Shown here in pieces: positions 13,716 to 47,769 of a stretch of 64,000 nucleotides of DNA. Under the pieces are notes generated by a model. The model searched no databases. It saw only the letters and a list, made by a program, of their open reading frames with translations, and was not told where the DNA came from. The position numbers were made by a program, and so were the translations under genes. How positions within the stretch are numbered: the first letter of the stretch is position 1; each line of letters begins with the position of its first letter. The stretch comes from Bacteroidota bacterium (lineage in GTDB: Bacteria > Bacteroidota > Bacteroidia > Chitinophagales > Chitinophagaceae). The stretch covers positions 85,886-149,885 of the forward strand of contig JAFDZS010000009.1 of the NCBI GenBank assembly GCA_018266775.1. Direction: 5' to 3'.

Positions 13716-15503
13716 TTATTTTAATTCCACAACACAGGCCTGGTAAGGCTGCAGGTTCACCACACCATTTTGCACTGTCAAAGGCTGCAGGTTATTGATC
13801 CATTCTTTGCCCAGCTGCATAGTACCAAGGTTGAATTTGCCGCCAGTTTTTCGAAAGCTTAACAATACTAATACTTTTTTACCTCCTGCTTCACGTGTAT
13901 AGGCATATACGTCAGGATTATCCACATCCAGCAATGTATATTTTCCGTACACCATAATATCCTTATGCTCTTTCCGCAGCTGCACCATCTTTTTAAAATA
14001 GTTTAATATGGAATTGGCATCTTTTTCTTCCGCAACAACATTTATGGTGGATTTGTTATCGTTCACCTTTAGCCAGGGCGTGCCCGTGGTAAAACCTCCG
14101 TTCAATCCTGCATCCCATTGAAATGGTGTACGCCCATTATCCCTTGCTCCGCCCGTTTTCTGGTCTTCAATAAAACCTTTTACATCTCCACCGGCATTTT
14201 TCACTTTGTTGTATTCAGCAATGGTTTCTATATCGCGGTAGTCTTCTATCTTATCAAATTTAATATTCGTCATGCCCAGTTCATCACCAAAATAATAATA
14301 AGGTGTGCCCCGCATGCTTAATAAAAATGTGGTGAGCATTTTAGAAGAGGCATCATGGTATTCCGGTGCATCATTTCCCCAGCGGCTTACCATACGCGGT
14401 TGATCATGATTGCCGAGGTATATTGTTCCCCATCCTTTATTTTCAAAAACGCTATCCCAGTCAGAATATATTTTTTTGAATGCCACGAGGCTCCAGTTAG
14501 GATCCATCTTTTTAAAATAGCCAGGCACATAACCTAAACTCACGCCATCAAAATGGTAAGCCATATCCAGTTCTTTACGGTCCGGGTCAACAAAATCCAT
14601 TACGGTTGATTTGGTGGTTCCTGCGCCTTCTGCAACAGTCATAATATCATATTTGCTCAGCACTTCTTTATTCATTTCCTGTAAATAACTGTGCAAGCCG
14701 GGGCCACTGGCCTGGTACACATCCCAACGGCCATCATATTTTGCATCCAGGTCTTTTTGGGTAATAACCGGGAATGTAGTGTCTTTCGCAATAAATGGAA
14801 TGACATCCATACGGAAACCATCCACTCCTTTTTTAAACCAGCGGTTCATCATAGCATAAATTTCCTGGCGCACTTTGGGGTTTTCCCAATTCAGGTCGGG
14901 TTGTTTATAGCTGAAGTAATGCAGGTAATAACTGTTGGTAAGGGAATCGAAACGCCAGCCACTGCCATCCACTTCAAAATTGCCGGGCCGGAATGGTGGT
15001 TTGCCTTTTTCTGCGGGCCACCAGTGAAAATAATTACGGTATGGATTGGTTCTTGAACTGCGTGCCTGTTTAAACCATTCATGTTCATCGCTGCAATGAT
15101 TCACCACCAGGTCCATCACCAGCTTTAAATTGCGTTTATGCATTTCCGATAGCATCGTATCAAAATCGGCCATAGTGCCAAACTCTTTCATAATATCATC
15201 ATAATTGCTGATGTCGTAACCGTTATCGGCATTGGGGCTGCCATAAATGGGATTCAGCCAGATGACATCCACGCCAAGGCTTTTCACATAATCTAATTTG
15301 CTGGTAATGCCTTTTAAATCACCAATACCATCACCATCACTGTCTTTAAAACTGCGGGGGTAGATTTGATACACCACCACTTCCTTCCACCATTTTTTTT
15401 GCGAAGCAGTATCCATAGTACCTGATTTAACTGTGCCTGGATTATTACAGGAAAAAAGGCTGCAGGAAAAGATTACAGCTGCAGCAGCATATAGCTTATA
15501 CAT
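13716..15503 (-). CDS. GH13 (subfamily 31-like) alpha-glucosidase lipoprotein
   Basis: This 595-aa lipoprotein (lipobox SLFSC, Cys19) is a retaining alpha-glucosidase of the oligo-1,6-glucosidase type. The TIM-barrel motifs are all present. DLVVNH is at about 131-136, and QPDLNW at 201-206 is the region-V signature of this subfamily. The nucleophile is Asp233 in VDGFRMDV, the acid/base Glu292 in VAEG, and the stabiliser Asp367 in GNHD. A C-terminal beta domain ends the chain. The track start at TTG 15509 is two codons upstream; ATG 15503 is preferred. It diverges from the MFS gene across a 152-bp region holding a LacI-like site, and is transcribed into GH65. The paralogue at 35875-37617 is close. 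Confidence 0.9.
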   Translation of the reverse strand: MYKLYAAAAVIFSCSLFSCNNPGTVKSGTMDTASQKKWWKEVVVYQIYPRSFKDSDGDGIGDLKGITSKLDYVKSLGVDVIWLNPIYGSPNADNGYDISNYDDIMKEFGTMADFDTMLSEMHKRNLKLVMDLVVNHCSDEHEWFKQARSSRTNPYRNYFHWWPAEKGKPPFRPGNFEVDGSGWRFDSLTNSYYLHYFSYKQPDLNWENPKVRQEIYAMMNRWFKKGVDGFRMDVIPFIAKDTTFPVITQKDLDAKYDGRWDVYQASGPGLHSYLQEMNKEVLSKYDIMTVAEGAGTTKSTVMDFVDPDRKELDMAYHFDGVSLGYVPGYFKKMDPNWSLVAFKKIYSDWDSVFENKGWGTIYLGNHDQPRMVSRWGNDAPEYHDASSKMLTTFLLSMRGTPYYYFGDELGMTNIKFDKIEDYRDIETIAEYNKVKNAGGDVKGFIEDQKTGGARDNGRTPFQWDAGLNGGFTTGTPWLKVNDNKSTINVVAEEKDANSILNYFKKMVQLRKEHKDIMVYGKYTLLDVDNPDVYAYTREAGGKKVLVLLSFRKTGGKFNLGTMQLGKEWINNLQPLTVQNGVVNLQPYQACVVELK

Positions 15504-19540: not shown

Positions 19541-19797
19541 TTAGCCGCAGATGCGCAGAGGCATGGTCTGACGTCCCGTCTGACCATGAAAAGTTAGCCG
19601 CAGATGCGCAGATGAAAGTAATTTAAATTATTGTATACAGCATAGCAGGAACAGGGTCTGACGTCCCATCTGACCATGAAAGGCTAGCCGCAGATGCGCT
19701 GATGAAAGCTATTTAAATTACAGCTCACAACACAGCGGGGACATGGTCTGACGTCCCGTCTGACCATGAAAGGTTAGCCGCAGATGAACGGATGAAA
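19541..19797. repeat. 90-bp tandem array with REP-like imperfect palindromes
   Basis: Three copies of an imperfect palindrome, full form CATGGTCTGACGTCCCGTCTGACCATG, start at 19562, 19652 and 19742, exactly 90 bp apart. Each forms a stem GGTC-T-GACG / CGTC-T-GACC with a conserved T-T mismatch and a three-base loop; copy 2 carries a few changes. Between them lies a second conserved element, TTAGCCGCAGATGCGCAGAT, followed by an AT-rich ATTTAAATTA. The array fills the convergent gap between the 311-aa gene and the first FG-GAP gene. The hairpins may also act as terminators in both directions. Confidence 0.8.
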
Positions 19798-43632: not shown

Positions 43633-45765
43633 ATGAAAAAGTTTATACTGTTTGTTTTTCTTATCCCGTGTTTGTTGTCTATCCATGCGCAACAAACATT
43701 GCTGTTTCGAAACGAAAAATTAAGCGCTGAAGAAAGAGCAAGGGATCTTATCAGTCATCTCACCACCAATGAAAAAATTGCGTTATTGCTGTACAACAGT
43801 CCGGGTGTGCCCCGGCTTAACATTCCTTCTTATAATTGGTGGAATGAAGCATTGCATGGTGTGGCGAGGGCGGGCCGTGCCACAGTGTTTCCACAAGCTA
43901 TTGGAATGGCTGCCACATTCAATGATTCATTGATACAAACCATGGCCAATGCCATCAGCGATGAAGCCCGAGCCAAATACAATGCCGCGGTAAAAAACAA
44001 TAACCGTGCACAATATCTCGGCCTTACTTTCTGGAGCCCGAACATCAATATTTTCCGTGATCCCCGCTGGGGCCGCGGCCACGAAACGTATGGAGAAGAC
44101 CCTTTTCTTACCGGCAAAATGGGTTCGGCTTTTGTGAGGGGAATGCAGGGTATGGATCACCGTTATTTTAAAACTGTGGCCTGTGCCAAACACTTTGCCG
44201 TGCACAGCGGCCCTGAACCGCTGCGGCATGAATTCAATGCAGTCATCAGCAACAGCGATCTGCGCAACACGTATCTTCCCGCATTTAAAACATTGGTTAC
44301 CGAGGCAAAAGTGGGCGGGGTAATGTGTGCTTATAACCGTACCGACAGCCAGCCTTGCTGTGCAAACCATTTATTGCTACAGGATATCCTGAGAGATGAA
44401 TGGCAATTCAAAGGTTATGTAGTGACAGACTGCTGGGCACTGGATGACATTAAAACCTATCATCATTATGTAAAAACAGATGCGGAAGCTGCGGCAATGG
44501 CAATTAAAGCAAACGTAAATGTGGAATGCGGCAATACATTAAAAGCACTGCAGGATGCATTACAGCAACATCTTTTAACTGAAAAAGATATCGATGCATC
44601 ATTGCAGATCAACCTCGTAACGTTATTTAAACTGGGCTGGTTTGATAAAAAAACGCCTTTTGACAATATCTCACCCGCTGTGGTGGATAATGAAGCACAC
44701 CGCAAACTGGCAAGAGCTGTAGCCGCACAATCTATGGTGTTGCTCAGTAATAAAAATCATGTACTGCCTTTATCGAAAAACATTGGCCATATTTTAATTA
44801 CGGGGCCTAATGCCAATGTGAGCAATGTACTAATGGCGAATTACAACGGTTCTTCTTCCAAGTGCGTAAATTTTGTAGAAGGAATTACTGCAGCAGTCAG
44901 TGCATCCACCATCATCAGTTATAACCAGGGCTGTAGTTTAACCGATACCACTATGCAGGATGTGTACTGGCAAATTAACGATGCCGATGCTGTTGTTGCA
45001 ATAATGGGTTTATCACCATTGCTGGAAGGTGAAAATGGTGACGCATATTTATCGGAAGCTGGTGGCGATAAAAAAGATATTCATTTCCCTTATGCACAAT
45101 TGAAATATTTGAAAGCACTAAGAAATAAAACAAAAAAACCATTGATTGTTGTTGTCACTACAGGTTCCGCTGTTGAATTGAAAGAAGTGGAAGCACTGGC
45201 AGATGCAGTGTTACTGGCCTGGTATCCTGGCGAAGAAGGTGGCAATGCTGCAGCAGATATTCTATTCGGCAACTATAACCCGTCCGGCAGATTGCCCGTA
45301 ACGTTTTACCAATCCAACAATGATCTTCCGGCATTTGATGACTACGCTATGAAAGGCCGTACTTACCGTTATTTTACCGGGCAACCGCAACATGCTTTTG
45401 GCTTTGGTTTAAGTTATACTAATTTTAGTTATACTGGTTTAAGTGTTTCGTCTACAAGTGACAGGTATATATTCAATTTTAAACTTTCCAATTCCGGAAA
45501 ATTTGATGGAGATGAAGTAGCCCAGCTTTATGTAAAAAGATTGAACGCCGGCAGCGACGAACCGGTACAACAATTGAAAAGTTTCAAACGTATTCATATT
45601 ACCAGGGGAAAAACGATTACTGCAAGTTTAGCATTGGAGAAAAAAGATTTGGCCTGGTGGGATGAGCAGCAACATGCTTATGTGGTGTACCCGGGAAAAT
45701 ATGAAATTGGTATCGGCAGTGCCTCCGATCATATTTTATTAAAACAGGTGATTGAGGTAAAATAA
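43633..45765 (+). CDS. Exported GH3 beta-glycosidase (beta-xylosidase-like)
   Basis: The 710-aa enzyme has a signal peptide ending SIHAQ (about residue 20) and the usual three GH3 parts: an N-terminal TIM-like barrel (about 30-360), a C-terminal sandwich (about 370-590) and a fibronectin-like domain (about 600-700). The nucleophile is Asp266 in VVTDCWALDD. The motifs NWWNEALHGVARAG (about 69-82) and FRDPRWGRGHETYGEDP (about 141-157) are those of beta-xylosidases. No PA14 insert is present, so it is shorter than many Bacteroidota relatives. It is the last gene of the plus-strand operon and runs up to the REP-like array. Xylosides are the likely substrate, with beta-glucosides as an alternative. 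Confidence 0.88.
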   Translation: MKKFILFVFLIPCLLSIHAQQTLLFRNEKLSAEERARDLISHLTTNEKIALLLYNSPGVPRLNIPSYNWWNEALHGVARAGRATVFPQAIGMAATFNDSLIQTMANAISDEARAKYNAAVKNNNRAQYLGLTFWSPNINIFRDPRWGRGHETYGEDPFLTGKMGSAFVRGMQGMDHRYFKTVACAKHFAVHSGPEPLRHEFNAVISNSDLRNTYLPAFKTLVTEAKVGGVMCAYNRTDSQPCCANHLLLQDILRDEWQFKGYVVTDCWALDDIKTYHHYVKTDAEAAAMAIKANVNVECGNTLKALQDALQQHLLTEKDIDASLQINLVTLFKLGWFDKKTPFDNISPAVVDNEAHRKLARAVAAQSMVLLSNKNHVLPLSKNIGHILITGPNANVSNVLMANYNGSSSKCVNFVEGITAAVSASTIISYNQGCSLTDTTMQDVYWQINDADAVVAIMGLSPLLEGENGDAYLSEAGGDKKDIHFPYAQLKYLKALRNKTKKPLIVVVTTGSAVELKEVEALADAVLLAWYPGEEGGNAAADILFGNYNPSGRLPVTFYQSNNDLPAFDDYAMKGRTYRYFTGQPQHAFGFGLSYTNFSYTGLSVSSTSDRYIFNFKLSNSGKFDGDEVAQLYVKRLNAGSDEPVQQLKSFKRIHITRGKTITASLALEKKDLAWWDEQQHAYVVYPGKYEIGIGSASDHILLKQVIEVK

Positions 45766-46491
45766 AATCTTGCCGATAAGTAAGTGCCAGCGGGGAAGTC
45801 AACTGGTACAGTTGCCTTTCTTCAAAAAAGTTATTCCGAAGTATTAACTTTTGATACCCTGATGAAAAGAAGGCAACCTTGCAGGTTGACTTCTTTAGAA
45901 GATGTCAATCTTGCAAAGAAGAAAGCGGCGGCGGGGAAGTCAACTGGTACAGTTGCCTTTCTTCAAGAAGTTACTCCAAAAGTATTAGCTCATAACAGTT
46001 CAACAAAAAGAAGGCAACCTTGCAGGTTGACTTCTTCAGAAGATGTCAATCTTGCAAAGAAGAAAGCGGCAGCGGGGAAGTCAACTGGTACAGTTGCCTT
46101 TCTTCAAGAAGTTACTCCAAAAGTATTAGCTCATAACAGTTCAACAAAAAGAAGGCAACCTTGCAGGTTGACTTCTTCAGAAGATGTCAATCTTGCAAAG
46201 AAGAAAGCGGCGGAGAGGAAGTCAACTGGTACAGTTGCCTTCCTTCAAAAAAGTTATTCTGAAGTATTAACTTTTGATACCCTGATGAAAAGAAGGCAAC
46301 CTTGCAGGTTGACTTCTTCAGAAGATGTCAATTTTGCAAAGAAGAAAGCGGCGGAGAGGAAGTCAACTGGTACAGTTGCCTTCCTTCAAAAAGTTACTCC
46401 AAAAGTATTAGCTCATAACAGTTCAACAAAAAGAAGGCAACCTTGCAGGTTGACTTCTTCAGAAGATGTCAATCGATGAATACGAACAACA
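45766..46491. repeat. Five-unit 141-bp array of REP-like palindromes in alternating orientation
   Basis: Five units begin near 45796, 45937, 46078, 46219 and 46360, a strict 141-bp period. Each holds a forward arm GAAGTCAACTGGTACAGTTGCC and, about 75 bp later, an inverted arm GGCAACCTTGCAGGTTGACTTC. Each arm is itself an imperfect palindrome (GAAGTCAAC-N7-GTTGCCTTC with one T-C mismatch). The spacer between the arms comes in two versions, ordered A-B-B-A-B. Because 141 is divisible by three, a 231-codon open frame runs through, but it is repeat-derived and I do not call it a gene. This is the only gene-free stretch longer than 300 bp in the window. Confidence 0.9.
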
Positions 46492-47673
46492 TTATAAATT
46501 TCGTACTATACCCATTTCCAATCCTCTTAATTCAGCCAAACCTCTTAGTCTTCCAATGGCAGAATAACCGGGGTTTGTTTTCTTATTTAAATCATCCAGC
46601 ATCTGGTGGCCATGATCAGGCCGCATGGGGATACTGATTTTCCTTTGCTGCATCACCTGTATAATTTGTTTTACCACCGCATACATATCCACATCACCTT
46701 CCAAATGATTTGCCTCAAAAAAATCACCCTCACTGTTTCGTTGTGTACTGCGCAGGTGAATGAAGTTGATCCGGCTGGCAAATTGCTGCACCATTGCAGG
46801 CAAATCATTATCTGCACGTACGCCAAATGAACCGGTACAAAAACACAATCCATTATTCAAAGAAGGAACAGCTTTAACCAATGCTTCAACATCAGCAGCT
46901 GTACTTACCACACGCGGCAAACCTAAAATAGCATAAGGCGGATCGTCCGGATGAATAACCATTTTCACATTGCAGTCATCCGCAACCGGAATGATTTCCT
47001 GTAAAAAATAAATTAAGTGAGAACGGAGTTTGGAGGCATCAATACCTGCATAAGCGTCCAGTGCTTCCTGGAATTTTTCCAGCGTAAAACTTTCTTCACT
47101 GCCCGGTAAACCTGCTATGATGTTGCGTTGCAGCAATTGCTTTTCTGCATCCGTCATTGCAGCAAATTTAATTTTCGCTTTCTCTATTTCAGCAGCCGTA
47201 TAATCCTGTTTGGCATTTTTCCTTTTGAGCATGAATACGTCAAATGCAACAAAGGCAGTTTTTTCAAAACGTAAAGCTTTGCTGCCATCTTCTGTGGTGT
47301 AAGACAAATCAGTTCTTGTCCAGTCCAGCACGGGCATAAAATTATAGGTAATAACATGAATACCACAAGCACTCAAGTTTTGTATAGATTGTTTGTAGTG
47401 TTCAATATATGTTTTAAAGTTTCCCGTTTGTGTTTTGATGGCTTCATGTACCGGAACACTTTCCACTACTGACCATTGCAGCCCTGCTGCTTCGATGATT
47501 TTTTTTCTTTGCTGAATTTCTTCCACCGTCCAGGTTTCTCCATTGGGAATATGATGCAGTGCAGTTACCACACCGGTACAACCAGCCTGTCGTACATCTG
47601 CCAAACTTACTGGGTCATTCGGGCCAAACCAGCGCATGGTTTGCTGCATCATCGTTGCTTCATTCGTGTTCAT
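46492..47673 (-). CDS. uxuA: D-mannonate dehydratase
   Basis: This 393-aa cytoplasmic enzyme dehydrates D-mannonate to 2-keto-3-deoxygluconate in glucuronate breakdown. Typical UxuA features are [19 protein letters not shown] near the start, [18 protein letters not shown] (about 105-122) and the metal-site region MVIHPDDPP. Later come [14 protein letters not shown] with the catalytic region and [14 protein letters not shown] near the end. The length is typical. Its product feeds the KDG kinase/aldolase steps, which are not in the window. It is the last gene of the minus-strand locus. Its stop lies only about 12 bp from the repeat array, and a solo repeat arm lies just upstream of it, so it is bracketed by repeat elements. 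Start alternatives are ATG 47673 or 47652. Confidence 0.93.
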
Positions 47674-47724: not shown

Positions 47725-47769
47725 AAGAAGGCAACTTTGCAAGTTGACTTCTTTCGAAGATTTCAAATA
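47725..47769. repeat. Solo REP-like arm upstream of uxuA
   Basis: AAGAAGGCAACTTTGCAAGTTGACTTCTT is a single copy of the palindrome found in the 141-bp array, in its inverted orientation. It is followed by a diverged match to the array's next bases (CGAAGATTTCAA versus AGAAGATGTCAA). Two substitutions relative to the array arm (CAACCT/AGGTTG to CAACTT/AAGTTG) preserve base pairing. The rest of the 163-bp gap is AT-rich with CCATTATCAATTGTCCATTATTC-type filler. Confidence 0.75.

Follow-up and report, generated by a model that had tools for sequence, protein, structure and literature searches.

The gap between two convergent genes in a Bacteroidota genome (Chitinophagaceae) is filled by a run of alternating palindromes, and the question that this locus raises is whether the run belongs to a mobile family and which enzyme would serve that family. 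REP-RAYT systems are known mainly from Proteobacteria, with a GTAG-tagged hairpin. The window analyzed here is a stretch of 64,000 nucleotides, part of contig C24 of a genome of 5.08 Mb in 24 contigs; coordinates given without a contig are those of the window. An earlier note on this DNA had interpreted the run as part of a REP/BIME family that is mobilized by a RAYT (REP-associated Y1 HUH transposase), and had proposed a genome-wide search for the palindrome arm, a search for a RAYT gene flanked by it and a test for codon-level selection in an open frame kept by the repeat period.

The array (45795 to 46457, without a strand of its own) occupies the gap between the 3' ends of a GH3-family glycosidase gene (beta-xylosidase-like, 43633 to 45765, plus strand), whose stop codon (45765) lies 30 bp ahead of it, and of the convergent mannonate dehydratase gene uxuA (46492 to 47673, minus strand), whose stop codon (46492) lies 35 bp past it. 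We observed a BIME-like array of five units with a period of exactly 141 bp, holding ten REP-like hairpin arms, imperfect palindromes in strictly alternating orientation. Repeat and pattern searches thus bore out the layout described in the earlier note: Tandem Repeats Finder gave a period of 141, 4.9 copies and 89% matches at 45790 to 46474, and all ten arms fit GAAGTCAAC-N7-GTTGCCTT(C/T) with zero mismatches to the pattern, which was matched 22 times in the window versus 0.21 times expected by chance. The start given there, 45796, was off by one base, as the first arm begins at 45795. The odd-numbered arms lie on the plus strand and belong to class B, with a G-C foot: arm 1 (45795 to 45819, loop TGGTACA), arm 3 (45936 to 45960), arm 5 (46077 to 46101), arm 7 (46218 to 46242) and arm 9 (46359 to 46383). 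The even-numbered arms lie on the minus strand and belong to class A, with an A-T foot: arm 2 (45869 to 45893, loop CTGCAAG), arm 4 (46010 to 46034), arm 6 (46151 to 46175), arm 8 (46292 to 46316) and arm 10 (46433 to 46457). The T-C stem mismatch and the order of the two 3'-3' spacer versions had also been read correctly, the former being present in 10 of 10 arms and the latter running A-B-B-A-B. The first 3'-3' spacer (45820 to 45868, 49 nt) is of version A, and the first 5'-5' spacer (45894 to 45935, 42 nt) lies inside an A/B head-to-head dimer. The near-identical 141-bp units and the recurring spacers indicate that the array grew by tandem duplication after insertion. An eleventh, isolated arm of class A (47727 to 47751, minus strand, loop TTGCAAA), missed by the earlier note, lies between two tandem genes in the window.

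We then compared arms from the whole genome. The arm is an imperfect palindrome forming a short stem-loop, with a 25-nt core, 18 letters of conserved sequence and a stem of 13 bp including the foot. Stem pair cells were formed in 98.5% of cases compared to 93.5% in shuffles, and none of 500 shuffles reached 98.5%. With one exception, the foot pair beside GAAG...CTTC was either A-T (50 arms) or G-C (32 arms); in a reduced alignment of 36 arms it was A-U in 19 and G-C in 17, with no exception, and the loop-closing pair was C-G in 28 and U-A in 8. The stem is therefore supported by compensatory changes, which define two classes, A (A-T foot) and B (G-C foot). The T-C mismatch lies five bases in and is kept in nearly all arms genome-wide; it thus gives the palindrome a direction. 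Arms are organized as inverted dimers and tandem clusters, and each head-to-head (5'-5') pair of arms with 7-nt loops consisted of one class A and one class B arm, spaced 40 to 47 nt apart, while tail-to-tail spacers in short-loop arrays were mostly 46 to 49 nt long. No GTAG (GT[AG]G) or CGTC tag was conserved upstream of GAAG in the 36 aligned arms. Some arms, all of class A, have long loops of 42 to 44 or 74 nt with unchanged outer ends. At the first four such sites the loop lengths fell into these two narrow groups, loop sequences differed by site, and the outer stem and the mismatch were retained.

The census of arms was based on pattern and covariance searches together with the stretches around the sites. 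Pattern matches numbered 65 on the forward and 60 on the reverse strand, counts that are inflated by near-palindromic arms matching both strands, compared to 0 and 1 for the reversed control. The sequences around the first 19 stretches contained 83 arms. A covariance model built from 36 arms gave 102 hits in the genome, 12 of which were the same place on the opposite strand. The arm thus occupies 90 or more places, grouped in about 25 sites, and the newly found sites yielded further long-loop arms. The genome-wide search thus refuted confinement of the arms to this locus: the family counts about 100 copies, as singles, dimers and arrays. A run of N breaks one array (C9, about 14220 to 14420), so that its copy number is uncertain. 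According to an open reading frame heuristic, all sites were intergenic, about 14 in convergent, 11 in tandem and 1 in divergent intervals, and most lay some 11 to 140 bp past a stop codon. The sole divergent interval was the one upstream of a transposase-like gene on contig C11. Among 98 relatives, 58 of them from the same genus, we obtained a single hit, which is at chance level. A pattern scan of 84,980 species, a collection that may omit the window's own genome, gave two isolated hits, where base counts would predict about 7 by chance, and one of the two lacked the class A or B foot. Judged from these searches, the arm family is species-specific.

Searching the genome with Pfam Y1_Tnp returned six genes, none near an arm, which carry other palindromes or none. 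Listing the open reading frames between arm clusters brought up a gene that this search had missed, and the idea of an orphan family without an enzyme gene was dropped once it was found. This gene (C11:541443-542099, 219 aa) is the arm-flanked candidate for which the earlier note had proposed to look: it is embedded in arms, three upstream (541100, 541247 and 541319) and eleven or more downstream (542145-542863). Among about eleven Y1-type genes in the genome it alone is so embedded, the ten others having no arms nearby. The NCBIfam model REP_Tyr_transpos matched its protein over the whole domain (E=1.9e-5), with a score of 24.6 bits, far below the curated 80-bit NCBIfam cut-off. The protein gave no match to Pfam Y1_Tnp, and the W[QE] motif was not found in it, GxLFxxPFKR standing instead. 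Of 398 genomes from the order, 93 had homologs. An alignment of 25 homologs showed His62 and His64 (HUH) and Tyr152 to be invariant and Asn61 nearly so; the clade has the motifs NHxH, GxLFxxPFKR and YIHAN(P) and a length of about 205 to 225 aa. REP_Tyr_transpos matched all 25 (best E=2.3e-18), and Pfam Y1_Tnp matched 12. Against the PDB, the clade profile retrieved only 4er8, the E. coli TnpA-REP (E=4.3e-5), and hhalign of the clade to canonical RAYTs gave 98% probability (E=1.5e-13). A tree placed the clade apart from the 2.6-like RAYTs that occur in this order (support 97/97). By these profile and motif comparisons, the C11 gene is a divergent RAYT.

Two features of the C11 neighborhood were observed besides. 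The hairpin nearest upstream of the gene (C11:541319) is perfectly palindromic and its stem extends over a long stretch (GTTTCAAAGAAGGCAAC...GTTGCCTTCTTTGAAAC); it is without the T-C mismatch, as are the hairpins beside the nearest homolog of the gene, in genome G424. Moreover, the gene's own array (C11:542135-542938) has two 3'-3' spacer versions in the order x-y-y-x-y, which is the A-B-B-A-B order of the window array (45820 to 46432), and the spacer sequences look unrelated. The matching order may be a coincidence, or the arrays may have grown in a common way.

Homologs of the C11 gene in related genera were then inspected for hairpins of their own. Similarity between the upstream and the downstream hairpin was at least 0.75 in 9 of 26 homologs, compared to 0 of 650 mismatched flank pairs, the remaining 17 homologs falling below this threshold. 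In G424, whose protein has 53% identity, the hairpins contain the core GGAAGTCAA, common to the studied arm, and occur only on either side of the gene and nowhere else in that genome. A 41% homolog (G217) comes with a different hairpin, GTGGTTCACTC-N5-GAGTGAGCCAC, which has one conserved mismatch and was found in at least 13 places, two of them flanking the gene. For a 32% homolog (G372), the hairpin was seen at five places, three of which are upstream of the gene. Hairpin amplification across these genomes and the studied one thus runs from 2 (at the gene only) over 5 and 13 to about 100 copies. Judged from these comparisons, gene and hairpin appear to travel and to diverge together.

Other REP-like families were also noticed in the studied genome. 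A second one is present in the window as three copies of GGTCTGAC-N5-GTCTGACC, with one conserved T-T mismatch, at 19565 to 19765 within a 90-bp tandem array (19565 to 19797). Genome-wide, its pattern has 25 forward matches. Another Y1-type gene (C20:273466-274078) is closely followed by five tandem copies, and gene and hairpin family apparently form a second REP-RAYT pair. Two more RAYT-type genes (C23:484k and C21:164k) are flanked by different palindromes of their own (ATATCATCCTTGTC/GACAAGGATGATAT and GGATGCTGGAGC-type, respectively).

Several other explanations of the array were weighed. As the earlier note had pointed out, the 141-bp period holds a 231-codon frame open (45784 to 46479, plus strand), and the array could on this ground code for a repetitive protein of 231 residues. 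Differences between the A and B spacers, however, were distributed 9/7/6 over the codon positions and comprised 6 synonymous and 16 non-synonymous changes (27% synonymous versus 24% expected at random). By codon position and synonymous share, codon-level selection was thus absent from this frame. Moreover, 30% of shuffled 141-bp units also kept an open frame, and sister arrays in the genome repeat at intervals not divisible by three (137, 139, 154, about 203 and about 208 bp). The frame stays open since 141 is a multiple of three and, by coincidence, no stop falls within the unit; it is incidental and not a gene, and we give the coding explanation practically no credence. That the array arose merely by local tandem duplication, without ever having been mobile, would fit its near-identical units and exact period, and duplication surely built it from a first dimer; as a full explanation this is refuted by the spread of the same arm, singly, in dimers or in arrays, over about 25 sites, which makes it extremely improbable.

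The arms might also be bidirectional intrinsic terminators with T-rich tails, multiplied by selection at gene ends and not by a transposase. Indeed, most sites lie about 11 to 140 bp past a stop codon, the neighboring genes being for the most part convergent or in tandem, and 10 terminator-like sites were predicted in 850 bp versus 0.9 expected, nine of them in arms. But terminators have no need for a conserved 18-letter sequence, a T-C mismatch, two-class heterodimers or constant spacers, and arms with loops of 42 to 74 nt would be poor ones; the arms also cluster around one transposase gene, and the family is absent from all congeners. We consider this explanation unlikely, while the terminator-like form of the arms is a second possible reason for their position and to that extent counts against a reading by transposition. 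Still less likely, in our judgment, is that the hairpins are the ends of miniature elements moved by another transposase, with the RAYT-type gene a bystander. Long-loop arms (42 to 44 and 74 nt) do keep their outer 9-bp ends, like terminal inverted repeats, but matched hairpins recur beside homologs of the C11 gene in other genera, hairpin core and protein diverge together, and no other Y1-type gene of the genome is near an arm.

We therefore hold it highly probable that the array belongs, as a BIME-type cluster, to a species-specific family of REP hairpins, and that the divergent RAYT at C11:541443-542099 is the cognate enzyme of this family. The earlier reading stands as regards the family, with its dispersed intergenic arms, A/B heterodimers and arm-flanked RAYT-type gene; cutting and mobilization of the arms by the RAYT-type enzyme are what we infer, and it counts against this part that relatives are without the family altogether, so that arm movement has to be deduced. 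Also against the reading speak the missing tag, the absence of a Y1_Tnp match and of W[QE], the NCBIfam score below the cut-off and the 17 homologs that fell short of the hairpin threshold. By analogy with E. coli, the enzyme would recognize the arm as folded single-stranded DNA, the T-C mismatch would mark the strand, a role that the bulge has in E. coli REPs, and the HUH/Tyr site would cut and rejoin the arm. A/B dimers (REPINs) would be the mobile unit, seeded at new intergenic sites, and an inserted dimer would then expand by tandem duplication to the strict 141-bp array. As GTAG is missing, strand choice may depend on the mismatch and the foot. In the host, the hairpins probably end transcripts in both directions or form structures at the 3' ends of mRNAs.

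On a broader and more tentative level, which we regard as possible but doubtful, a separate Chitinophagales RAYT clade, about half of it invisible to Pfam Y1_Tnp, would uphold REP populations by reading a hairpin that contains a mismatch and whose foot, self-complementary and switching between classes, takes the place of a GTAG guide. The clade would tolerate loops of 7 to 74 nt, so that the hairpin can carry extra sequence, and it may derive from a (2.1-like) subclass that is not known to have REPs. The REP family described here, from Bacteroidota, is species-specific and well populated; it is tagless, its hairpins fall into two covarying classes, and a candidate for its enzyme has been identified. 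Its tagless arms make the choice of strand and cutting site by a RAYT without a GTAG guide directly testable, and the graded series of 2, 5, 13 and about 100 copies does the same for the start of a REP population.

How does this system compare with those already described? A search of the literature on REPs in Chitinophaga and RAYTs in Bacteroidetes showed only Di Nocera 2013 and Quentin 2018 to be relevant. In E. coli, TnpA-REP binds REP hairpins in single-stranded form, depends on both the mismatch in the stem and a 5' GTAG, is active on the REP strand only, and cuts and rejoins it (PMC8266576). As in E. coli BIMEs with their Y and Z REPs, we found two REP classes in head-to-head heterodimers and tandem arrays, a conserved stem mismatch and one flanking REPtron gene (PMC8266576). 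Unlike E. coli BIMEs, the arms have no GTAG tag but a self-complementary, covarying foot (A-T or G-C), and number about 100 instead of about 600; unlike E. coli TnpA-REP, the studied protein clade is without the W motif. Inverted doublets with a conserved 5'-5' spacer, here 40 to 47 nt, resemble the REPINs or HH dimers (PMC3116915), and a RAYT gene bounded by hairpin pairs resembles TIRYT/TIRtron genes (PMC3733652). The studied arms differ from both in being a new sequence family in which some arms have loops of 42 to 74 nt.

Closer parallels are found in the TnpA-Y1 classification of Quentin et al. 2018 (PMC6006769), who also reported REPs without the GT[AG]G tag. Their subclass 2.6 (Bertels group 5) comprises genes from Bacteroidetes that have atypical hairpins, lacking GT[AG]G, on their flanks and copies of these elsewhere in the genome, similarly to what we observed here. 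That subclass has WQ and YIH[QN]NP motifs and a median length of 179 aa (PMC6006769), whereas the studied clade has GxLFxxPFKR and YIHAN(P), about 205 to 225 aa, and its place in the tree is apart (97/97). Judged by eye from the motifs, the nearest is subclass 2.1 (Bertels group 1), with NH[YF]H, an FQ variant at the W motif, Y[IV]HLNP and an SS tail motif, a subclass reported not to be associated with REPs (PMC6006769). Taken together, the family has the short hairpin, the dispersed intergenic copies and the inverted dimers and clusters of REPs and BIMEs, without their GTAG/CGTC tag. Its C11 locus is arranged like a REPtron, a Y1-type gene flanked on either side by copies of one repeat. The encoded protein has the HUH motif and catalytic Tyr of RAYTs and is related to TnpA-REP by sequence profiles, while it lies below the family cut-off and has neither a Y1_Tnp match nor W[QE]. 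With most features of REP/BIME-RAYT systems present, the tag and W[QE] missing, and a difference from subclass 2.6 in motifs and tree, the array and its candidate enzyme are thus best described as a variant of REP/BIME-RAYT systems.
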